Positions 1 to 63,921 of a stretch of 64,000 nucleotides of DNA are shown piece after piece. Below the pieces are notes generated by a model. That model was not told the origin of the DNA. It saw only the letters and a list, made by a program, of their open reading frames with translations, and ran no database searches. The stretch lies in the NCBI RefSeq assembly GCF_047663525.1, contig NC_092612.1, positions 405,501 to 469,500 on the forward strand. The letters are read 5' to 3'. Position 1 is the first letter of the stretch, and the number at the start of each line of letters is the position of its first letter. A program made the position numbers and the translations under genes. Source of the stretch: Anas platyrhynchos. Taxonomy: Eukaryota; Chordata; Aves; Anseriformes; Anatidae.

Positions 1-234
1 TGAGCAAAGCTAAGCCCCTGGAAGCAGACCAGTAGCAAGATGAAAGAAACCCTTGTGTCCCAGGCTTCAGTCCCACCTTCCAGCAGCGCAGCAGAGCAAC
101 AAAGCTGCCAGTCCACAAGTGGGACTCGGCTTCAAGGTGGGATGTCTGCAGCCCCAGGCAGAGGCTGGAGCCAGGGCCAGGACGGAGCGAGAGGGCATGG
201 AGCTGCTGTGGGGAGGCTGCAGAGCGTTTCTTAC

Positions 235-238
235 CCAT
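235..238 (-). CDS. SELENBP1: SELENBP1-like copy A, coding part of exon 1 only (partial gene, rest off left edge)
   Basis: On the minus strand an ATG at 238-236 plus one G (235) is followed at once by a consensus donor (gtaagaaac). The same four-base coding exon starts copy B at 14333-14336, and the sequence from 1 to 1836 is identical to 14099-15934, so this is the first exon and promoter of a further SELENBP1 paralogue whose exons 2-12 would lie to the left of base 1. A TATA box is at 354-361, so the exon probably runs from about 331 to 235. Bases 1-234 are its intron 1. What is seen is only the promoter, start codon and donor. Whether the rest of the gene is intact, and whether it is as cysteine-rich as copy B, cannot be told from this window. 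Confidence 0.75.
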
Positions 239-353
239 GCTGAAGGCCTTCTGGTTCACTGTCCTCAAGAGCAGAGGTGCTGGGGCTGGAGGAGCAGCTT
301 GCTGTCTGCCTTGCTGGAGTGGGTCGTGTAGTGCCAGGGCTGCTCGGAGGGCC

Positions 354-361
354 CTTATATA
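354..361 (-). promoter_or_regulatory. TATA box of SELENBP1 copy A
   Basis: The minus strand reads TATATAAG here, 116-123 bases upstream of the start codon of copy A. Transcription would be expected to start about 30 bases further on, near 331. The same box lies at the same distance from the ATG in copy B. Confidence 0.7.
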
Positions 362-3300
362 CACGACTAAGGGGTGGGGGGCAGAAAGCAAGCTGCCAAG
401 GGAGGAGCGAATGTTCCCAAGCGTTTGGGAGGTGCCAGACCAGCGCTGTGGCTTGTTTCCGCCTTGCTAACCACCAATCTAGAGGAAAAATCTGCTAGTC
501 CATGCAGGTCCTTTCCTGAAGCACAAGCCACCCCTATCTGATCCTGGGGCCCTGCTCATCTCCACTGGGACTTCTTCGGGCTCTGGAGGCCTCCATGGCC
601 CAGCCAAGACACAGGCTAATTAAAGCCATCCCCAGTGCCCAGCTTCTTGCAATAGAAATGTGCAGCGATTGCAAATTCCAGACGAGGGATGAGAAGCCCA
701 GCTAGATAATTGGCCCCACCAGCAGCCTCCTGGAAATTACGAGGCTTGAACTCATGGAGGCCACCAAAGGCACCTCCAAAATCTGGACCCTGACACAAGG
801 CACGTCTCTGTTTGAGGGCTCAGAGGAAGACACGGGCTCCCTGCCACCAGCTCAGAAAGCCAGGCCCACAGGTTCCGCAACCCGTGAAGAAGACTTCCTG
901 AGCTCGGAAGAACGGGGATCCAGGGATTCCGAGAGGCAGGGGCTCCACCAGTACTGAGCTCACAGGAGCCCTGAGGAGTTGCCGCCAGCTCCCAAGCACT
1001 CAGAAGATAACTATGGCCAGGGACAGATGCCTCAGGATGTACACTCTGTGCCAGTCTTGACCCAGCACGTCTGAGGATCAAGGCATGCCAGCTGCCTCTC
1101 AGGCTTGCACCTGCACACGGGAGAGTCAGTCAACCTGTGTAAAATAGGGACCTCAAGGTTTTGGGGCAGGTCGGCATCACAACACGGCACTGCAGCAGTG
1201 GCCACATCCTCTCCGCACCTCCCTGAAGCAGAACGATGCCAAGGAAAACTGATGCTGGAGGTGTCTCCATGTCCACCTGCTTGGACACCCCACTGCACAG
1301 CTCCATGGGTTCTTGGGACAGGGCCCTGCTGGGTGGCACAAAGCCCTACAATCCACCAAGCGCCATGGAACGTGAACGAGTACCATATCTCGCGGAAGAA
1401 CTCCTCAATCAGCGGGCAAATTACATCGGGTAAGTAATTGCTCCACGTAGGAATGCAGAAACATCTGACAGAGCCACTAAAGAAGCCCTCGGGAGATCCC
1501 TATCAGAAGAGAGGACATCTCGCCCAGGCTCTAATTAATGGCTCTGGCTTCAGCACAGCTCTCTAAACAGGTGACGGGGGGGACACGGGAGCAGCCAAAC
1601 TCTTGGTCTTTTCTGTGAGAGAGGAGCATCAAGCTGACACCATTGCCAAAGGATTCTTACAAGAACTCGTGTGATCTGTTCAGCACAAATGCGCCTCATC
1701 ATTTTCACTGCCAAGGGCAAAGGCAGGCTGGAGAGGGGTTGTTACCTGCCACAGCTGGACCCTTCCACACAAACCATCAATGGACAGTTCGTGCTGCCAC
1801 TGTTGCTGCCCAGCTACGCCAAGTTTCTCTGTAAGATGAGAAGAAGTTGGTAAAAGACCATCACGGAGGAGAGCAGAAAGCACGCAAAGCAGTGGCACAA
1901 AACCTTGTTTGATTAGCTGCCAGAGAAGTGGAGTCCTAGTCAAGGCAAGAGCGGCTCCTGTGAAAGAAATTACATCCTCTGCCAACACCAGGAGGGGTCA
2001 AGAAATGCCATCAAGATCCAAGCCCAGGACTGCCCTTCTGCCTCGATGACCTGCGAGTAACACGTAGGAGTGGGGGGAAATACATGCACGGCAGTGAAAC
2101 GCACTGGAATCACCTTCCGTGTGATTGGGCTTGCCAAACGCTTTTGGGTCAGGTGGCAGCAAAGGCAAAATGACTGGCACACAGGCTCACGCTCATTTTT
2201 TCCACAGGATTTGCCTTTCAGGCTGGCACAGCCTGAAGATGTGCTCCAGAAAATGGGCACCAGGGGATGCTGCCCACTGAAGGACACTCAGGCCTGATGG
2301 CAGGGTGCAGCTGCAGCGGCTGCTCCATCAGAGGCAACGTCAGGGGCTTGGCTGCTGCCCCTGACAGAGTGCTTTTGCAGTCACCATGTGCATGTCTCAA
2401 TGCACCTTCTTGTACCCGTACACCTGCTAATTAAAAACTTCATTAGTCTGCTGCTCATTAACAGTGTGCTGGTCATCCTAGTTGGCTTTCCTCGGTGACG
2501 TCTTTGGCATCCCTCACAAAACCAAGCTGTGGGGCGTAGAGTTTTCTAATTAAAGCTGATAGGAAGAAGGATAAGAGCAGGCTCAGCAACACCAACAGGA
2601 ACGCAAGCAATGGTTGGTGGGGAACAACATCGCTACAGCCTGCTCCCAGCCCAAGAAGAGCTCCCTGTGGCAGGCACGGGTAGGAAGCTGTGACATGGAA
2701 AAGCAACTGGGGGCTTCCCGGTGCAGCCCAGACCGTGGTGGCAGCTCCGTCCCTCCTCCTGCCCATCACTTCCAACCCTGATAGGGACGAACATGCTGTC
2801 ATTGTGATCATGGGCATGATGGAGTGAAGCATTCTGGCATGGACTGGCACTGCACACCGAATGCGCTGGGAGAAGACCCTGCTTCACTGAGGACACTGAG
2901 GCTTCTCTTAGCACCCAAGCAACAACTCCCCCAATGATGGGACCGTCCTGTGACCTTTCCCCAGCTCTCCAGGGTGGAGACCCTGTCCCTTCCCACCTGA
3001 TCCTCGAATATAACCCTGGAGGTGCCCTGGTGTATCTCAGCGTTGCTCACGATCCTGCATTCTGAAATCCCCTTTTCCTGTCCTTTTGGCCTGCCCCCTT
3101 ACTCTTCTTACAGCCTTCTACCAGATTCAGATAGTTCAGGTAGGTGCTGTGCATGAAAGGAGCAGCAGAGTGTGGAAGGACTCTCATTATCACCAGTGCC
3201 CCAGCAAAAAATGCCAGCAGAGCTATGTTATCTAAGACCTCACCATGCTGCAGGTCTCTGTTGCAGTCCCTTTCCCCCTTCAGGAAGGGAAGAACACCAT

Positions 3301-4402: not shown

Positions 4403-4587
4403 TGTGCACAGCTTGGAGCCCATAAGTTTGTTCTCATATCCGTGACATAAAATCAGGAAAAAAGATTAAACTCAGAAGTATCAGTTTGTTCTTTTTCCCT
4501 GATGACACATCATCAAAACATGTGATGCTTCCATTCCATCCTGAAGTGATGACGCTCATCTTTCAGGTTGGACAGGCAGTGGATCAC
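4403..4587 (-). pseudogene. SELENBP1 exon 4 relic (decayed paralogue)
   Basis: On the minus strand the segment aligns with exon 4 of copy B (11967-12152) and with intron sequence on both sides (for example 4380-4402 with 11940-11966, and 4588-4830 with 12153-12400). The reading frame begins V-I-H-C-L, retains N-L-K-D-E, then carries small indels and an in-frame stop 25 codons in. The acceptor is broken (ctat instead of ctag before GTGATC) and the donor GT is gone (actatg for ggtatg). I could not recognise the neighbouring exons 3 or 5 at the expected distances. It is a dead fragment of an older tandem copy, more diverged from copy B than the copy A/B repeat. Confidence 0.75.
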
Positions 4588-8758: not shown

Positions 8759-11700
8759 CTAGGCCAAGATGTCGGAGGTGGAATCTCCACAAGGGAAGCG
8801 GATAGAATGGGCAAGGCAAGGCCCATTGGGTTCCTTTCCGAAATCCACCAGGAAGTTCTTGTTCACCGTCAGGCCTCCTTTCTCAGTGTCCACATCAATC
8901 TGCAGCATGACAGAGCCTTCCCTGCAGGGGGGCGAGAGAGCAGGCATTACAGACAAGCACGCGGGGCCCTTCCTGCCCTTCATGAGGTGGAGGCATTCTC
9001 CCTGACATCTTGTCTTCTCCACAGAGAAGACAGCAGAGGCCCACTCCTAGCAGTGGCTAACACCAGCACCCATGGCTCCGTGCTGAATTCTCACCGGAGG
9101 CGAGTAAACCACCAGGCATGATGTGACAGACAGGCTGGAGCTTGCCTTTGTGTTGGAGGTCATCGTTACTGAACGAAAACGCCTCTGGTGGAGCAGAGCC
9201 GTGGCCTGGCTCTGAGAGACCCACAGATGGACTCACTCCACCTGCAAGGCCGATCAACGTACGCGCTCCCAAGCCAAGCCCTGCCACTGCAGCTCCACAC
9301 AGGGAGCAGGTTCAGAGGTGCACGGGAGACAATTGCGTGTGCAATTCAACAAGAGCAAGCACAGCAACCGCAAGGGATTCCTCGCAGTCCCCTGGGTGAG
9401 GCACCTTCCCCACTTCTAGCACTGAGGCCTTGCAAAAGAGGCCCCTTTCCTCCCCCAGATTTCTTACCTGACCACGTTCGGGTAGAACTGCTTGTCCCAC
9501 GTGCTGTAGAAGGAGTTGGTGACGTACAGCCTCTTGCCATCCAAGCTGAGCTGCATCTTACAAGGGCCACCGTACACCCTCTTGCACTGGAGGCACAACA
9601 GAGAGCAGGGATGTCAGGGCCTCTTTCTCTCAGCAGACAAGCAAAAGCAGAGGCAGCAGAGCAGAGAAGCAGAGCACAATGGCTGCCTCCCCTCCTAACA
9701 CAGCTCACCTTGATCACCAAGGGCTCCGGCTGGCACTTCAGCTCTTCATCTCTACACACAGTCACGGGCCCGCCTCTGAGGATGCTGCCTCCCACAAACA
9801 CCTGGAAGCAAGGCAGTGGGAGATGTGTGGCTTGTCTTGTAACCACCACCAGGTACTGATAAGGAAGCAACGCTGCAAGCCCCTCTGCCCGTCCTTACCT
9901 GTCCCACCAGCCTGGGCTTGCAGGTTTTGGAGATGTCATACTGGCGGATGTCTCCGTGCAGCCAGTTGCTGAGATACAGGTATTTGTCATCCAAGGAGAT
10001 GACCATGTCGGCTGTGAAGGCTAGGGCACAGAAAAAAGAACTCTGGAGGAGGCGGCGTCAGCAGAAAACTCAGCCCCTCTGGCATGGCATGCATTGGGTT
10101 TACAGGGCACGGCCGCTGGGCTTTGCCAGGCTGCACAACGCAGCGCTCCGAGAGGAAAAGGGCAACTCCACCTCAGGGCTCACCAACCTGGCATCTTGCA
10201 GAGAATCCATCCCGACACCTCCTTGGCTGGTATCTGAATCGCCTCCTCTACTGACCAGGTATCTCTCTGCAAAGGAGCACAAACACCGTGCCGTGGGCAT
10301 TCCTGGCTGCTCAGGACAGAGCCCTCCCCTGCGCTCGCCCGCTTGCACAGCCAGGCAAATCATAGAATCATAGGATATCTCGAGCTGGAAGGGACCCCTA
10401 AGGATCACTGAGTCCAACTCCTGGCACCGCACAGCTCTCCCCAAACTTTTAGAGCATGTGCCTAAGCGCACAGTCCAATCGCTTCTTAAATTCAGAGAGT
10501 CTGTGTGCAGTGCCTGGGTTTCTGGTGGCTGCGGGCAGAATACTTGCCTCACAACAAGCCTTGTAGAAGCGGTAGATGATGCCACTCAGGGCACAGCTGA
10601 CATAGCCCTCAGCAGCATCGGGGTTGTGGAGGAACTTAACGCTCAAGGGCAACGAGTCCTCCCCCAGGTCAAAGCACTGGGTCAGGGTGCGGCAGGACAA
10701 GTTCCACACGTTCAGGCGGCGCCCAAAGACCCCTGAGGAAGAGGAAAGGCGAGAGTCAGGAGAGGGCAGGGGAGCTACGGAGATCGCTCACACCTAAAGA
10801 CGCTCCCTGGCAGGGACAGCCACGGCAGCGGCTACCCAGGATTAGCAGCAGCAAAATGCAGTGACTTTGGGAACAGAGGGAGAGAACAGGAACCAGCCTG
10901 TCTTGAGGAGAGACGATGAGCGTCCTGGGGCAGTGCCCGTAAAATGGGCCATTTTGGGACAACTCCGCCTGCCCCCTCTCCCCGGTTCTGGACCGTTCAG
11001 CAACCGCATCAACATCCTCCCATGAGCCTGGTCAGTTCTGGCTCAGTGCTTGCATCCCCATTCTCACCTTTCTTCAAATCATCAGGATTAAATCCACGCC
11101 CCGCACGTTTTGGAACCAGTCCGGCAGAGCTGATGAGAACGTTGTGGCGGGGCTGGTACCAGAAGTCATAGCCAGTTGGGGGGGCCTCGCACTCGTTTTC
11201 CCAGTTACCTTTCAGCTCAAAGGTCTCTCCATCCAGCACAATAAATCCTCCTGTGATGCAAGAGGGCATGCACAACAGATCGAATACTCATCTTTCCAAC
11301 CAGTCATGTTGTTCATGGTCTTATTGTAGGGAAAAATACCTTTTCCATTGCCAGCTGGATCTCCCATGTTGGCAATCAGTATATCACCATTAGGCAGGCT
11401 ATGAGGTACACTGAGGTATCCCTTGTTGCACTTCCAGAAGACATCCACTGGCTCAATCATCTGAAAGAAGTGTATACACGAGTAAGTCTGACTGATCTGC
11501 TCATTTCACACTACATGGCAGAGCAGAGTCTTTGCCATCTGAGGTTTCTGGTGTTCACAGGAGTTTTCTTTCGAAGAAATCACACCTGCTAGGCCTTGCT
11601 CATCCTTGGAAAGAAGCGAAGAAGCCACTGAGCTCTCCTTTACAAGGACAACATGAATGCAGCAACTCGCAAGAGCTTGTTTGCCCACCTTACTCTTTGG

Positions 11701-14336
11701 GATGGGGGCCAGGCATGGGGTGCTACATGGCTTCCAGTTATTAGACACTCCCTGAATGCAACAGGCACAGGGAAGGCAAGAAAATGGGGGTGGAAGCCTC
11801 CCCTCAGCCTGAGAAGGAGAAAGCCGAGGGGGAAGCATGACCCAGGTCTCTAAAATCAGGGGGAAGAAAAGAAGAGGAGGAGAACCTTCTTCCCTGTGCA
11901 TTATTCCAGAAGCACCAGTTCCCAAGTCCTTCCCAGAAAGTTGCCTTTGAATCAGCTCAGGCATACCTTACAGAGCTTGGGAGCCCGGCACTGTGAACCC
12001 ACATCCACCACGTAAATACGGGAAGAAATCAAACAGGGGAGAATCAGCTTGTTCCTTTTTGTTGTGATATTGTCAAAGCAGACGCAGCCGGCGCCCCACC
12101 CTGAGGAATGCAGCTCGTCTTTGAGGTTGGGCATGGGCAGGCGGTGGATCACCTAGGCAGTCAAAGGCAAAGTTAGGGTTCAGTCAGGGAGGCAGGGACA
12201 AAAGGGGACATTAATACAGGCAGATACTTCTATCTTTGTAGCCTCCATGTGACTAGAGCTGGGAATGCCTCTAGAGACGCAGAAAGGAGAACATTGCTCC
12301 TTACACTAGCCATTGCCCTTTGACAGGTGACTGTGTGCAGCTGGGAAATGTGGAGATATCAAAGATTCATTCAAGAATTCCTCACCCCATGCCACTAAAA
12401 TTCAGAAAATTACATATGAAGAAATGATGATTATCATCTTGACATGTCAGGTGATTCACTCTGGAAGCTTCTCCGAACACTGGACTCTCAGAAGTCTGTA
12501 TTTTCTTTAAAGTGCATTTGCTCCTAATCTCTTGCACTAACGGAGTAATCAGGTAATATATATACAACCCTGATGTAGACAATATGCCTAGTATTTACTT
12601 GTTTCTGAAGGATTTCGCGTTTAGGATGACAGCAGACAGGTTGGTTCAGAGCATTCTGAAATTGCAGTACAGTAGAAAAAAGATGAAATCTGCAAAAGTG
12701 CAGGATACCCTAAACCATCTGGGTTACTAGTGAACATATTCCCTGCTGAGCAGCCACTGGCAGGGTGATTCAGAGCATGTGCTCAAAAGTTCACTAGTAG
12801 CACCAAGATGCTATGGAAATGAGTTGGGAAGTGAATCCCTACTGGCTTGTCCCCTGAGACAAAGAGATGCTGATGATTCAACTGGAGCCAGGTACACAGG
12901 GGACAGCAGAAAAGCAGCAGGGAGTTAACATTCATAGCAGACAACATCCCAGGCTGGTGTGTATCACCAGTGGAGAAGCAAGAAATAGGCCTGTCATGGC
13001 AAAATTATTGGTTGCCCAGACAGTCATGAAGAGGACATGAAAAACAAATAGGAAGCAGGATAAAAGAATCAACCAAGAGACAGAAATGAAAATGTGGAAA
13101 GACAAGAAGGTGCAAGGCATAAAAAAAAAACAACAAGCATGACAGAGTGGCTGGAAAGCACTCTGAATTTCCATAGCAGAAAAGAGTAAACGGCATGAAT
13201 CAGGAAGCACAAAGACAGCAGCTAGTCATCAGCTCAGTAGAAACAGTCTAGGCACAGGTACCTGGCCGTAATACGGAGATCTGGGGTTGAGATCAACAGT
13301 GGCCAAGAAGTCAGGTTGGTCGATGCAAGTTTCTCGGTAAGTACAGGTCACATAAGCAACCTCTTCCCTAGGAGCTTCAAATAAAGAAAACTTGTGTTAC
13401 AAAGAGACATAAAATGTCCATAAAAGAAAAAAAAAGTTTCAGCAGACTCAGATAAGACTAAGCTACGCTTTCTGCAGCTACAACCTTCCTCCTTGGTCAA
13501 TGACAACTGCCCAGCCCTGGCTCACTCCTGGCCCAGAGCTGAGAACACAACACAAGCAGATCACTGCACAGCTCCAGTTTTCTCCCACCAAGGGAAGGGA
13601 CTCAGCACATGCAATTAATTAACGGTGGTCTCTAAAAGACTCAGGCTTTGTCATCATCCAGTCTGAAGCTAACACCCCCCTTTCACAAATGCCCCCCTTT
13701 CCAAACATTCCCGAGAGGACTTGCCTTTCACAACGTCCGGGCAGACGGGGTAGTCGTAGCACTGAAGTTTGCATCTGTCTGAATTGAGAAGGAGAGAAGA
13801 ATGAAAGGAGAAACGTCCACGTCCTTAAATGGTGCCAGTTCAAAAGGCTCCATCCCACCCAGTGGACCTTCGCCCACCCTCGTCATCAGTGGGGACCTCT
13901 GACCAGCATCTACTTGCGTAGATTTAGACTAGATATAAGGCAGAAATTCTTCACTATGAGGGCTGTGAGGCACTGGCACAGGTTGCCCAGAGCAGCTGTG
14001 GATGCCCCATCCCTGAAGCGCTCAAGGCCAGGTTGGATGAAGCCTTGAGCAAGCTGGTGTGGTGGGAGGTGTCCCTGCCCAAGGCAGGGGGGCTGGGATG
14101 AGCAAAGCTAAGCCCCTGGAAGCAGACCAGTAGCAAGATGAAAGAAACCCTTGTGTCCCAGGCTTCAGTCCCACCTTCCAGCAGCGCAGCAGAGCAACAA
14201 AGCTGCCAGTCCACAAGTGGGACTCGGCTTCAAGGTGGGATGTCTGCAGCCCCAGGCAGAGGCTGGAGCCAGGGCCAGGACGGAGCGAGAGGGCATGGAG
14301 CTGCTGTGGGGAGGCTGCAGAGCGTTTCTTACCCAT
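8759..14336 (-). CDS. SELENBP1-like copy B: cysteine-rich selenium-binding protein 1 paralogue, 12 exons, 473 aa
   Basis: Exons in transcript order: 14336-14333, 13778-13725, 13374-13262, 12152-11967, 11460-11340, 11250-11068, 10732-10548, 10266-10188, 10020-9899, 9801-9709, 9586-9468, 8921-8759. The sum is 1422 bases with no internal stop. SELENBP1 is a cytosolic copper-dependent methanethiol oxidase with a seven-bladed propeller-type fold; family signatures [49 protein letters not shown] and FLVDFGKEP are all present. Length matches human (472). Unusual points: 25 cysteines against 10 in copy C; the residue aligned with human Cys57 is Gly (SPYYGQ); HH after KDEL is HS; the N-terminal CxxC is CxxxC; the protein ends ILA rather than IWI. 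Introns 2 and 7 have GC donors. Exon 7 carries two extra codons. Intact frame and splice sites argue for a functional gene. Whether it keeps oxidase activity is unknown. Confidence 0.92.
10361..10525 (-). mobile_element. CR1 LINE 3' fragment in intron 7 of copy B
   Basis: On the plus strand the stretch opens 'aatcatagaatcata', then 'ctggaagggacccctaagga', 'gagtccaactcctgg' and 'gtgcctaagcgcacagtcca', which is the reverse complement of a CR1 3' end. Its inner end lies only about 25 bases from the GC donor of exon 7 (10547-10546). Confidence 0.9.
13915..14098 (+). mobile_element. CR1 LINE fragment in intron 1 of copy B
   Basis: The text 'ttagactagatataaggcag', 'gaggcactggcacaggttgc', 'ggatgccccatccctgaagc' and 'caaggccaggttggatgaag' is CR1 consensus-like. 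It breaks off at 'ggggggctggga' without the usual ATTCTATG end, exactly where the 2.8-kb direct repeat begins (14099). Confidence 0.9.
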
Positions 14337-16913
14337 GCTGAAGGCCTTCTGGTTCACTGTCCTCAAGAGCAGAGGTGCTGGGGCTGGAGGAGCAGCTTGC
14401 TGTCTGCCTTGCTGGAGTGGGTCGTGTAGTGCCAGGGCTGCTCGGAGGGCCCTTATATACACGACTAAGGGGTGGGGGGCAGAAAGCAAGCTGCCAAGGG
14501 AGGAGCGAATGTTCCCAAGCGTTTGGGAGGTGCCAGACCAGCGCTGTGGCTTGTTTCCGCCTTGCTAACCACCAATCTAGAGGAAAAATCTGCTAGTCCA
14601 TGCAGGTCCTTTCCTGAAGCACAAGCCACCCCTATCTGATCCTGGGGCCCTGCTCATCTCCACTGGGACTTCTTCGGGCTCTGGAGGCCTCCATGGCCCA
14701 GCCAAGACACAGGCTAATTAAAGCCATCCCCAGTGCCCAGCTTCTTGCAATAGAAATGTGCAGCGATTGCAAATTCCAGACGAGGGATGAGAAGCCCAGC
14801 TAGATAATTGGCCCCACCAGCAGCCTCCTGGAAATTACGAGGCTTGAACTCATGGAGGCCACCAAAGGCACCTCCAAAATCTGGACCCTGACACAAGGCA
14901 CGTCTCTGTTTGAGGGCTCAGAGGAAGACACGGGCTCCCTGCCACCAGCTCAGAAAGCCAGGCCCACAGGTTCCGCAACCCGTGAAGAAGACTTCCTGAG
15001 CTCGGAAGAACGGGGATCCAGGGATTCCGAGAGGCAGGGGCTCCACCAGTACTGAGCTCACAGGAGCCCTGAGGAGTTGCCGCCAGCTCCCAAGCACTCA
15101 GAAGATAACTATGGCCAGGGACAGATGCCTCAGGATGTACACTCTGTGCCAGTCTTGACCCAGCACGTCTGAGGATCAAGGCATGCCAGCTGCCTCTCAG
15201 GCTTGCACCTGCACACGGGAGAGTCAGTCAACCTGTGTAAAATAGGGACCTCAAGGTTTTGGGGCAGGTCGGCATCACAACACGGCACTGCAGCAGTGGC
15301 CACATCCTCTCCGCACCTCCCTGAAGCAGAACGATGCCAAGGAAAACTGATGCTGGAGGTGTCTCCATGTCCACCTGCTTGGACACCCCACTGCACAGCT
15401 CCATGGGTTCTTGGGACAGGGCCCTGCTGGGTGGCACAAAGCCCTACAATCCACCAAGCGCCATGGAACGTGAACGAGTACCATATCTCGCGGAAGAACT
15501 CCTCAATCAGCGGGCAAATTACATCGGGTAAGTAATTGCTCCACGTAGGAATGCAGAAACATCTGACAGAGCCACTAAAGAAGCCCTCGGGAGATCCCTA
15601 TCAGAAGAGAGGACATCTCGCCCAGGCTCTAATTAATGGCTCTGGCTTCAGCACAGCTCTCTAAACAGGTGACGGGGGGGACACGGGAGCAGCCAAACTC
15701 TTGGTCTTTTCTGTGAGAGAGGAGCATCAAGCTGACACCATTGCCAAAGGATTCTTACAAGAACTCGTGTGATCTGTTCAGCACAAATGCGCCTCATCAT
15801 TTTCACTGCCAAGGGCAAAGGCAGGCTGGAGAGGGGTTGTTACCTGCCACAGCTGGACCCTTCCACACAAACCATCAATGGACAGTTCGTGCTGCCACTG
15901 TTGCTGCCCAGCTACGCCAAGTTTCTCTGTAAGACAAGAAGAAGTTGGTAAAAGACCATCACGGAGGAGAGCAGAAAGCATGCATAGCAGTGGCACAAAA
16001 CCTTGTTTGATTAGCTGCCAGAGAAGTGGAGTCCTACTCAAGGCAAGAGCGGCTCCTGTGAAAGAAATTACGTCCTCTGCCAACACCAGGAGGGGTCAAG
16101 AAATGCCATCAAGATCCAAGCCCAGGACTGCCCTTCTGCCTCGATGACCTGCGAGTAACACGTAGGAGTGGGGGGAAATACATGCACGGCAGTGAAACGC
16201 ACTGGAATCACCTTCCGTGTGATTGGGCTTGCCAAACGCTTTTGGGTCAGGTGGCAGCAAAGGCAAAATGACTGGCACACAGGCTCACGCTCATTTTTTC
16301 CACAGGATTTGCCTTTCAGGCTGGCATGGCCTGAAGATGTGCTCCAGAAAATGGGCACCAGGGGATGCTGCCCACTGAAGGACACTCAGGCCTGATGGCA
16401 GGGTGCAGCTGCAGCGGCTGCTCCATCAGAGGCAACGTCAGGGGCTTGGCTGCTGCCCCTGACAGAGTGCTTTTGCAGTCACCATGTGCATGTCTCAATG
16501 CACCTTCTTGTACCCGTACACCTGCTAATTAAAAACTTCATTAGTCTGCTGCTCATTAACAGTGTGCTGGTCATCCTAGTTGGCTTTCCTCGGTGACGTC
16601 TTTGGCATCCCTCACAAAACCAAGCTGTGGGGCGTAGAGTTTTCTAATTAAAGCTGATAGGAAGAAGGATAAGAGCAGGCTCAGCAACACCAACAGGAAC
16701 GCAAGCAATGGTTGGTGGGGAACAACATCGCTACAGCCTGCTCCCAGCCCAAGAAGAGCTCCCTGTGGCAGGCACGGGTAGGAAGCTGTGACATGGAAAA
16801 GCAACCGGGGACAGCCCAGACCATGGTGGCAGCTCCGTCCCTCCTCCTGCCCATCACTTCCAACCCTGATAGGGACGAACATGCTGTCATTGTGATCATG
16901 GGCATGACGGGGT
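14099..16913. repeat. Large direct repeat, right copy (SELENBP1 copy B 5' region; partner 1-2815)
   Basis: This is the second copy of the 2.8-kb block. It starts directly after a CR1 fragment (13915-14098) inside intron 1 of copy B and ends in the flank between copies B and C. Apart from copy B's exon 1 and TATA box I see no coding exon in it; the short open frames in it are present in both copies and resemble no protein I know. Confidence 0.95.
14452..14459 (-). promoter_or_regulatory. TATA box of SELENBP1 copy B
   Basis: TATATAAG on the minus strand, identical in sequence and position to that of copy A. Transcription would start near 14429, giving a first exon of about 97 bases with only ATGG coding. 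A CCAAT-type box (ATTGG on the minus strand) lies about 110 bases further upstream at 14571-14575. Confidence 0.7.
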
Positions 16914-17590
16914 TATGCAACGTGTTGTGGACTTGTATTGCACACTGAACACGCTGGGTAAAGACCTTTTATATATATAGGTATTTATTTGTCTTATATG
17001 TGACTTGGCTGCAAAAACGTAAATGAATCTGTAACCTTAAATTAACAATGAATGAGAGAAAAACAGAAAATATTGTTAGCAAGGAATAGGAAAGCTGCAC
17101 CATGCCCTCCTGTGGCCATCTAGAAGATTACTTACTTTAACTTCCAGCAAACGAAGTCATGCTGAGGATACTCAGCAGTTTGGAAGTACCATCAGCTCCA
17201 CGAGCCTAGGTCACACTAGCTGGTTTCTTCACATTCCTACCTGCTTCCCAAGAGATGATGATTTCAACAAACAACATCAAATACTGTATGCAGACCAAGA
17301 GTTTTATGTGCATGTGAGTAAGGATGGGTTTTAGCCAGTGGGTAAATCTTCTGCAACAGTATTAAATGAACATTTGAGTATCTCTTTCTCCAGTTGTACA
17401 AAATGGAAGAGAAGCTCTGCTTGTAATAATGGGAACAAAAGTGACTTCAGCAAAAATAAATTCCTCACCTAAGAATTTCTAAACAAATGTCATTGCTACT
17501 TTCTGAGATGATGTTACATTTTATGTTCTCTGAAACAGAAAAAGATGAAATACTAAAGAGAAGAAAAAAAAGTGAAGCTCCATCTGACTC
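16914..17590. other. Flank between copy B promoter block and copy C poly(A) site
   Basis: No gene is seen. Bases 17020-17350 resemble intron 11 of copy C (18490-18830), for example the shared 'atgccctcctgtgg' and 'ggtttcttc' blocks, and are listed separately as an old duplication. Confidence 0.5.
17020..17350. repeat. Old diverged direct repeat of SELENBP1-C intron 11 (partner 18490-18830)
   Basis: Collinear matches run through both segments: 'aatgaatgag...ttaacaaggaa', 'gctgcac.atgccctcctgtgg', 'agtcatgctga', 'cagtttggaagta', 'ctggtttcttc' and 'agacc.agagtttt.tg'. Identity is clearly lower than for the 1-2815 repeat, so the duplication is older. No exon of SELENBP1 is recognisable next to the outer copy. 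Confidence 0.6.
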
Positions 17591-34405: not shown

Positions 34406-36395
34406 GTGTACAAACAAGCGATGCACAATGCAATTGCTCACCACCTGCTGACCGATGCCCAGCCTAACCCCGAGCAGTCCGCCCCCCCACCTCGGCTACC
34501 CACCCCTATCTACTGCTCAGCATGACCCCAGATGGGCTGGAATACCCCTTTGGGCAGTTGGGGTCAGCTGTCCTGGCTCTGTCCCCTCCCAGCTCCTGCT
34601 GCACCCCCAGCCTGCCTGTTGGCAGGGCAGGGTGAAGCAGAAACATCCTTGGCTTGGTGTAAGCACTGCTCTGCAGCAATTAAAACACCAGCGTGTTATC
34701 AGCACTCTGCTCATCCTAAGCCACAACATAGCACCCTACCAGCTGCTAGGAAGAAAATCAACTCTGTCCTAACTGAAACCAGGACAAGGAGTAGCTACAA
34801 TCATTAGTCATCAGTCAGTAATACAGAAATCTATTGGAAATCCTTCCTGCTACAGACATCCCAATTCCATTTGTAAACTTTTAACTTTTCCCATCACTTG
34901 CAGTGCCAGTGTGAGAGCCCATTTTCCTTGCCATTTAAGGAAAAAAAATCATATTTACTCATAGCTTCTGTTTCCAGACTATATTTTTGAAAAAAAAAAA
35001 AAAGTGAAACTTGCTGGTATTACCTTAAATAATTAAATAAAAGTGCCTCTAAGGCAGCAGCTGTGAAGCACAATCAGGAATACAAGCGCGGAGCTAGTGA
35101 TAATGTTGTTCTTTATTAGTATCAGCGGCATAACCACAGCAGAAAGCGCAGCCCTTTGTATTGCACATCTACATGATTTATAGGTGACAGACCGACAGTA
35201 AGTGAAAACACTTCCCTCCAGTATGAGGTGGAGTAGTCTGGTGCATTGTGCAAACTAGGAAGAATGACTGGTAACTCATGAAGACCATCAGAAGAAAATT
35301 AATGTGCTTGTTTAATGAACCACAGAATAATAAATCACATTTCAGCATCACATGGGCATCACAGCAAGGGGGTCCATTTGGGAAGCATGCTACTTATCGA
35401 ATTGTGCGAGTGTTTTCAAGAATAAATAAAATAACATTTCAAAGTGGGCTGAAGATACGTTAGCAGCTATAAAGCGTGTACTTATACAAGTGTCAAATAC
35501 GTTAACTGCCAGTAAAAACACGTTTTATCAGTTTTCGCTGTACTGTCTTCAGAGTTTGGTGTGTACTGCGTGCAGCTCGAAGCCACGTGGCCCATCCTTA
35601 CTACATTATCCACAATAATAACCCTATTATTAAAGATATAAACCATTTGGATTTATGCTAGGGAGAAACGTAGGCACTGATGAGATCTGTCGGCCTGACA
35701 GCACAGGAAACTTTGATGGCACGGAGCCAGCGGTGTCCTTCAGCAAACCCGCAGCGTCCCACGGCTGCTTGGATGGCGTTCGGCCTGTCCGCACCCCCCG
35801 GGCCCGGCTCCGCGGACAGCTCCCGGGGCCGCTCGGTGCCGGTTCCCCTGCCCCGTCCCGACCCCGGGGCACCGGGGGCCGCTGGGGGCCGTTTAACCCG
35901 CAGCCCGCCCCCGGGGGTGCGATTCGTGCCCGCGGCTGCGGCAGAGGGAGGCGGCAGAGGGAGGAGGAGGCTGCTCCCGCTCTGAGCCTCCAGGAGCCCC
36001 CCCGAGCCCCCTCCCGCACCGCCTCCCCCTCCCCCCGTGCGGTTTGGGGGCCCCGGGGCCGCGTCACGGCCCTGCTGCCGGGCCCCGCGGCGCCCGTGGG
36101 TGGCGGCTTCGGTCCTGGAGCCCCAAACCACGGCGGGGGGGGGGGAGGGGACCAGGCCGAGACCCCCCCCCCCCCCGGCCTCAGGGCCCGGCTGCCGCCG
36201 CCCCGCGGGCGCTGCCCGTGACCGCCCCGAGGGCCCGGTGGGGCCGCGGGCGAGGCTCCGGGAGGCCACGCTGAGGGGGGGGGGGTGGGATCCGGGGGTG
36301 CAGCCCCGGGGCCGCCCCCACGGAGCCCGGCGCGGCCCCGGCCCCGGCCCCGCCGCCGACCTCGGCCGGGCCCGGCGAGGAGGCGGTGGCGGCGG

Positions 36396-36403
36396 TGACG
36401 TCA
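36396..36403 (+). promoter_or_regulatory. CRE site 1 (TGACGTCA)
   Basis: Perfect palindromic CREB/ATF site upstream of POGZ exon 1. A second identical site lies 55 bases further on. Confidence 0.7.
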
Positions 36404-36415
36404 CCTCGCGGGGCG

Positions 36416-36420
36416 CCAAT
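36416..36420 (+). promoter_or_regulatory. CCAAT box between the two CREs
   Basis: CCAAT followed by CGG, an NF-Y-type site, placed between the twin CRE sites. There is no TATA box, as expected for a CpG-island housekeeping promoter. Confidence 0.6.
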
Positions 36421-36450
36421 CGGCGCGGCGCCTCGCGGCCCAGGAGGAAA

Positions 36451-36458
36451 TGACGTCA
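36451..36458 (+). promoter_or_regulatory. CRE site 2 (TGACGTCA)
   Basis: Second perfect CREB/ATF site; transcription start is expected within the following few hundred bases. Confidence 0.7.
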
Positions 36459-36779
36459 CCGTATCCCTCCGCCGGCCAGGTCCCCTTTTTGTGTGTGTGT
36501 GCTCGCGGCGCGCTGTGTCCATCCGCCCGCCGGGTGCCCGCCCGCCGCGCGGGCTCCGTGACGAGCCCCGGGGGGGGGGGGGAGGGGAGTGGGAGAGGGG
36601 TGGGGGGGGGGCGCCAGGCGCGGAGCCGCCCCCTGCGCGCGCACGGCGAGAGGCCGGGGCCAGCGGCAGCGCCGCCCGCTCCCGCTCCTCCTCCTCCTCC
36701 TCCTCCCCCTCAGCATCGCGCCCCGGGCCCGCCGCCCATGCCACCTGCCCTCCGCTGCCGCTCCCGGGGCCGGGCCGGC

Positions 36780-36859
36780 GGCGCAGCGCGGGGGGGCCGC
36801 GGGCCGCTCTAGGAGCCAGGCGGCGGCGGCGGCGGCTGAGCGCGGAGCGGGCGCGGAAG
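36780..36859 (+). other. POGZ: Presumed non-coding exon 1 of POGZ (3' part)
   Basis: A GCGGCGGCGG-rich leader ends at a strong donor, GCGCGGAAG followed by gtgagg (intron begins 36860). It lies at the centre of the CpG island, downstream of the CRE pair. The 5' end of the exon is not determined; the start given is only a marker. The start codon is in the next exon. Confidence 0.5.

Positions 36860-63921
<27,062 letters not shown>

Follow-up and report, generated by a model that had tools for sequence, protein, structure and literature searches.

In human SELENBP1 (methanethiol oxidase), which has ten cysteines, changes at H73, H74, H137, H140, D189 and E252 (His to Phe, Asp to Asn, Glu to Gln) are reported to nearly abolish activity; for H74F, H137F and E252Q the reported loss of methanethiol oxidase (MTO) activity is about 90% or greater in each case (PMC10362175, Table 1). 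The available portion of that report describes lower copper content in the H137, H140, D189 and E252 mutants, not in those at H73 or H74, and no single mutant in which copper binding was lost completely. The same excerpts attribute most selenium binding to a Cys5-X-X-Cys8 motif and suggest that C80 and C141 may be joined by a disulfide; mutants at these two positions kept selenium binding, with the exception of C80S, and their activity was not reduced. A second described system is CRUOX, a urate oxidase found in birds and reptiles that is rich in cysteine, is expressed in skin and forms disulfide aggregates upon oxidation (PMC10517255, in part). Other cysteine-rich proteins of bird skin appendages, such as EDCRP and EDDM of the epidermal differentiation complex and the corneous beta-proteins, are described as thought to be disulfide-cross-linked. 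No title or abstract opening among the matches listed from a partial literature names a cysteine-rich SELENBP1, a scope too narrow for the gene to be called undescribed, and the main texts of PMC11816140, PMC10801484, PMC12821399 and PMC8742010 mention neither SELENBP1 nor methanethiol, the last referring only to selenoprotein P.

Here we compare these systems with a SELENBP1 locus of the duck Anas platyrhynchos, centred on a window of 64,000 nucleotides (GCF_047663525.1, contig NC_092612.1, hereafter C26, positions 405,501 to 469,500). The gene of interest, copy B, and its close relatives (the B family) share with conventional SELENBP1 a full-length SBP56 match and the exon plan, but carry 25-26 cysteines rather than the 10-13 of the conventional copies C and D, and are replaced at H74, H137, E252, C8, C80 and C141. 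The B family resembles CRUOX in being a cysteine-enriched member of an enzyme family; however, the change in CRUOX is described as one among orthologues, with slow activity retained, whereas the B genes are paralogues standing beside C and D that have lost activity residues. In contrast to EDCRP, EDDM and the corneous beta-proteins, the B family descends from a full-length enzyme family, and it lies on a contig that also carries a keratin cluster, the nearest listed keratin match being 1.7 Mb away.

A tandem SELENBP1 family

Searched in six frames with SBP56, the 1.26 Gb genome yielded 35 matches, which are confined to C26 at 0.379-0.431 Mb. They resolve into a cluster (0.379-0.432 Mb) of five SELENBP1 genes in tandem on one strand in the order D, B3, B2, B and C, their models holding 13, 26, 25, 25 and 10 cysteines, respectively. 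Three of these genes, B, B2 and B3, constitute the B family, and none of the three contains a stop or frameshift. Rebuilt from the minus strand, copy B is a continuous reading frame from ATG to TAG with 12 exons, 473 residues and 25 cysteines, reproducing the intact gene of a preliminary description of this DNA, and the ten cysteines given there for copy C were confirmed in a model whose exon 1 was not located and was taken as ATGG. The spread of cysteines reported earlier over exons 2, 4, 7 (including a CC pair), 10, 11 and 12 was recovered without change, and the rest of them fall in exons 3, 5, 6, 8 and 9 (Table 1). The exon plan of copy B is that of C and D, to which it is 63-66% identical, and its match to the SBP56 profile (Pfam PF05694; 579.8 bits) covers residues 11-471 of 473.

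Table 1. Features of the SELENBP1 cluster (window positions unless prefixed C26)
Feature	Position	Strand	Basis or remark
Copy D, conventional SELENBP1 gene	C26:378983-384050		13 Cys; 6/6 activity residues
B2 upstream region and exon 1 (235-238)	1..2878	-	Remaining B2 exons left of window
Relic SELENBP1 exon 4 in B2-B spacer	4464..4571	-	In-frame stop
Copy B, cysteine-rich SELENBP1 paralogue lacking 3/6 activity residues	8759..14336	-	Gene model and SBP56 match
TATATAAG element, ~115-125 bases 5' of ATG	14452..14459	-	Also upstream of B2 and B3
Copy B exon 1	14333..14336	-	ATGG; gene model
Copy B exon 2	13725..13778	-	3 Cys; CxxxC in place of CxxC of C/D; GC donor
Copy B exon 3	13262..13374	-	2 Cys; C57 equivalent Gly in B and B2, Cys in B3
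Copy B exon 4	11967..12152	-	5 Cys; H74 equivalent Ser; C80 equivalent lost
Copy B exon 5	11340..11460	-	1 Cys; H137 equivalent Ser; C141 equivalent lost
Copy B exon 6	11068..11250	-	1 Cys; D189 equivalent retained; alternative model starts 11247
Copy B exon 7	10548..10732	-	5 Cys, including inserted CC; E252 equivalent Ser
Copy B exon 8	10188..10266	-	1 Cys; alternative model starts 10262
Copy B exon 9	9899..10020	-	1 Cys; H329 equivalent retained
Copy B exon 10	9709..9801	-	2 Cys
Copy B exon 11	9468..9586	-	2 Cys
Copy B exon 12	8759..8921	-	2 Cys and stop codon
Copy C, conventional SELENBP1 paralogue, 471 aa	18188..26407	-	Exons 2-12; 10 Cys; 6/6 activity residues

A splice search on copy B returned six possible models (469-473 residues, 24 or 25 cysteines) that diverge at the exon 6 acceptor and at the exon 7/8 junction, from which we adopted the 473-residue model with the exon 7/8 boundary as in C and D. 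Introns 2 and 7 of this model are GC-AG (donors at 13725 and 10548) and the remaining introns GT-AG; ending exon 7 at 10544 provides a GT donor, and the resulting alternative with a GT-AG intron 7 likewise encodes 473 residues and 25 cysteines. Intron 2 has GC-AG ends in every one of the five paralogue models, whereas intron 7 has them in the B-family models used and is GT-AG in C and D. A further exon 8 donor, which would add one cysteine, shifts the frame, and the splice search allowing it yielded no such model. The possibility that copy B is a pseudogene or a mis-spliced model was ruled out by the existence of three intact copies.

Over the 5578 bases of the gene body, B and B2 (C26 400161-405738) do not differ at all, and the 17.8-kb alignment around them has an identity of 99.46%; window positions 1-2878 and 14099-16966 are 98.6% identical. 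The pair could reflect recent conversion, or the assembly may contain a duplication that is false or haplotypic. The B family does not depend on B2, however, since B3 is clearly distinct from B, with 192 differences across the gene body. Compared in blocks of 250 bases, B3 and B mostly differ by 0-3% within the gene, with one block at 6.9% and those from 13586 to 12087 (exon 3 included) at 9-30%, where the alignment is poor in places, and their similarity stops downstream of the gene. This mosaic suggests gene conversion along an older duplication. An exon 4 relic similar to that in the B2-B spacer is present in the spacer between B3 and B2. The TATATAAG element is a putative part of the promoter of B-family genes, in a comparison that comprised B, B2 and B3 and left out C and D, whose exon 1 was not located.

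Cysteine gain and maintenance of the B family

The B family has 17 cysteines of its own, all of them identical across B, B2 and B3, the C57 equivalent being the single cysteine difference among the three copies. None of the 17 columns contains a cysteine in any of 80 bacterial SBP56 homologues (kept from 301 found, mostly Alphaproteobacteria by title), and two of the columns belong to an insertion that none of the 80 has. At positions with the same residue in C and D, 12 of the 101 changes on the B3 lineage were to cysteine; of the 61 changes found in C alone (37) or in D alone (24), none was (Fisher p = 0.0027). This test omits columns in which all three differ and in which D has three cysteines beyond the count of C. 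Cysteine gains number 16 relative to D and 18 relative to C; all but one of the former, which is common with C, are B-specific, and 7 of these 15 lie at least two base changes from the C codon and the D codon alike. Random codon drift to equal divergence produced 5.8 +/- 2.3 gains and at most 13 (300 runs from D and 300 from C). Simulations under the LG, JTT and WAG models gave mean gains of 2.35, 3.04 and 2.64 (maxima 9, 10 and 9), and none of 3000 runs reached 16, using D as a stand-in for the ancestor and a branch length from a tree made under a different model, and finishing at 60% identity, that is, at more divergence than the 66% observed. Five D cysteines are missing from B3, a point against the reading favoured below; this number is close to the simulated means for loss (4.0-5.4). 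The cysteine enrichment of the B family far exceeds that of its relatives and model expectation.

The position of the gained cysteines was judged from a fold prediction for a bacterial homologue (mean pLDDT 73.9), in which 15 of the 17 would lie outside strands (p = 0.04), or 13 of 15 once the two columns of the insert are taken out (p = 0.06), a borderline and weak indication of a loop bias.

Comparison of B3 with B gives a dN of 0.0091 and a dS of 0.036, hence a dN/dS of 0.26 by NG86 (0.32 by YN00 from its own dN and dS), showing purifying selection between the two genes; exons 3-5, which take in part of the most diverged tract, have a dN of 0.028 and a dS of 0.088. The stem of the B family is less clear, a rough three-way subtraction yielding a dN/dS between 0.38 (YN00) and 0.95 (NG86), against 0.06-0.08 for C and D, and as this estimate is saturated at synonymous sites and method-dependent we claim no positive selection from it. 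In a tree built from four bird sequences and 15 of the 80 bacterial ones, B groups with D (support only 92/95) and sits on a branch of length 1.01, the branches of D and C measuring 0.12 and 0.16, respectively. Such a long branch, and a stem ratio as high as the NG86 value with dS saturated, would be in keeping with a redundant duplicate that gained its cysteines by chance under relaxed drift. We nevertheless consider this highly improbable, given three copies free of inactivating changes, the low ratio between B3 and B, and a number of gains well above that under free codon drift and reached in none of the model runs. The argument of the preliminary description that cysteine was gained in a directed way in a maintained gene is supported by the same simulations, by the bacterial columns and by the B3-B ratio; a dN/dS near 1, which it had named as part of what would count against its reading, was not found between B3 and B, although the older stem is uncertain in this respect.

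Activity residues and predicted function

Three of the six methanethiol oxidase activity residues are replaced in B, B2 and B3 (H74S, H137S and E252S), whereas C, D and 80/80 bacterial homologues retain all six, the conservation of D189 in the bacterial set being biased because this residue falls within a search pattern. The residue numbering is supported by cysteine positions 5, 8, 57, 80, 83 and 141 of the human protein, as given in PMC10362175, which correspond to cysteines in C and D once the count is shifted by one. The earlier statement that the propeller signatures stay is borne out by the family match but does not extend to the active site. With serine at three residues needed in the human protein, the B family is predicted to consist of inactive pseudoenzymes, an extrapolation from human mutants that carry substitutions other than serine. 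At the level of sequence, we regard it as firm that the locus holds a tandem SELENBP1 family which is maintained, is loaded with cysteine and lacks the full set of activity residues.

The B family does retain H73, H140, D189, G225 and H329, and its proteins may still bind some metal, as H73, H140, D189 and H329 remain in place and none of the human single mutants lost its copper binding entirely. Together with the precedent of CRUOX, which is reported to retain activity at a 100-fold lower efficiency (PMC10517255, in part), this retention would accommodate B proteins that are still redox enzymes, retuned by surface thiols and an altered metal site towards slow thiol oxidation or the handling of peroxide or H2S in skin. 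We think this unlikely with half of the activity residues missing, each of them required in the human protein.

The N-terminus of copy B reads C4-K-L-Q-C8 (a CxxxC in which human C8 corresponds to Q) in place of the CGAC of C and D, and the equivalents of C8, C80 and C141, which are cysteine in 80/80 bacterial homologues, are all replaced in the B family. A selenium store operating through the known site is less favoured because the CXXC motif is altered, although the new thiols could bind selenium. More generally, B proteins might store metal or selenium, their many thiols and close pairs (C80-C82 and C280-C281) binding copper, zinc or selenite, but the altered motif is the one behind most human selenium binding and the cysteines are scattered across exons 2-12 rather than clustered, making this an improbable function. 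Among the thiol-rich roles suggested in the preliminary description, disulfide cross-linking would fit best, with selenium buffering and redox function of the enzyme type less favoured, the former by the change to CxxxC and the latter by serine at H74, H137 and E252.

The explanation we prefer, with a probability of roughly 0.6, is that the B family represents a neofunctionalised SELENBP1 lineage whose proteins are probably inactive and become disulfide-cross-linked in cornifying feather or skin cells. An enzyme copy would have kept the SBP56 fold while the B lineage lost three of its six activity residues, and with them probably its thiol-oxidase activity, and would have been loaded with ~17 extra cysteines. 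The protein would be produced as keratinocytes of feather or skin undergo terminal differentiation, and disulfides would tie it into the mass of keratin and corneous beta-protein while the cells oxidise and die, resembling what has been suggested for CRUOX. The broader proposal, that a bird SELENBP1 has become a tandem-amplified, enzymatically dead, disulfide-cross-linking feather or skin protein and that it forms with CRUOX a repeatable route of enzyme co-option, is more tentative, and we would place it slightly below even odds. If true, sauropsid skin would repeatedly recruit structural proteins by cysteine-loading metabolic enzymes, and a second case, found beside conventional paralogues of the enzyme, would turn cysteine-loading into a mode of co-option that is general and can be tested. 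The B family would also point feather biology to a cross-linker that is a folded protein, and supply natural variants at the SELENBP1 active site.

Tissue leads and chromosomal neighbourhood

The assignment to feather or skin draws on the putative orthology of chicken LOC425662, annotated with 'similarity to methanethiol oxidase', which in embryonic skin is reported to fall into one cluster with CRUOX and the feather keratins (PMC10517255, in part). LOC425662 could instead be a gene of the C or D type; it is listed among feather genes under regulation of transcription in the excerpted text of a 2015 paper (PMC4594745). Methanethiol oxidase has been identified in a polar bear fur sample, according to excerpts of PMC11166976, indicating that ordinary SELENBP1 without extra cysteines can occur in keratinised tissue. 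Keratin (PF02422) matches, scored for 150 of 275 candidates, are present on C26 at 2.157-2.357 Mb, 1.7 Mb from the SELENBP cluster, and also on C1, C2 and C28; as those on C28 and C2 form clusters too, linkage on C26 is weak evidence. Uricase-like stretches with four cysteines in 67 residues and three in 48 residues were observed on contig C8 (C8:24.98-25.00 Mb), possibly the CRUOX locus of Anas platyrhynchos.

On the plus strand of the window, positions 57968-59841 contain reading frames that we take to resemble POGZ, although a Pfam scan of two of these putative POGZ frames gave no match. SELENBP1 and POGZ are linked in mammals, a linkage that would hold here if the POGZ identity is right. 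Between the SELENBP1 cluster and these frames, window positions 36001-38000 form a block of 81% G+C that is perhaps the CpG island of a plus-strand gene.
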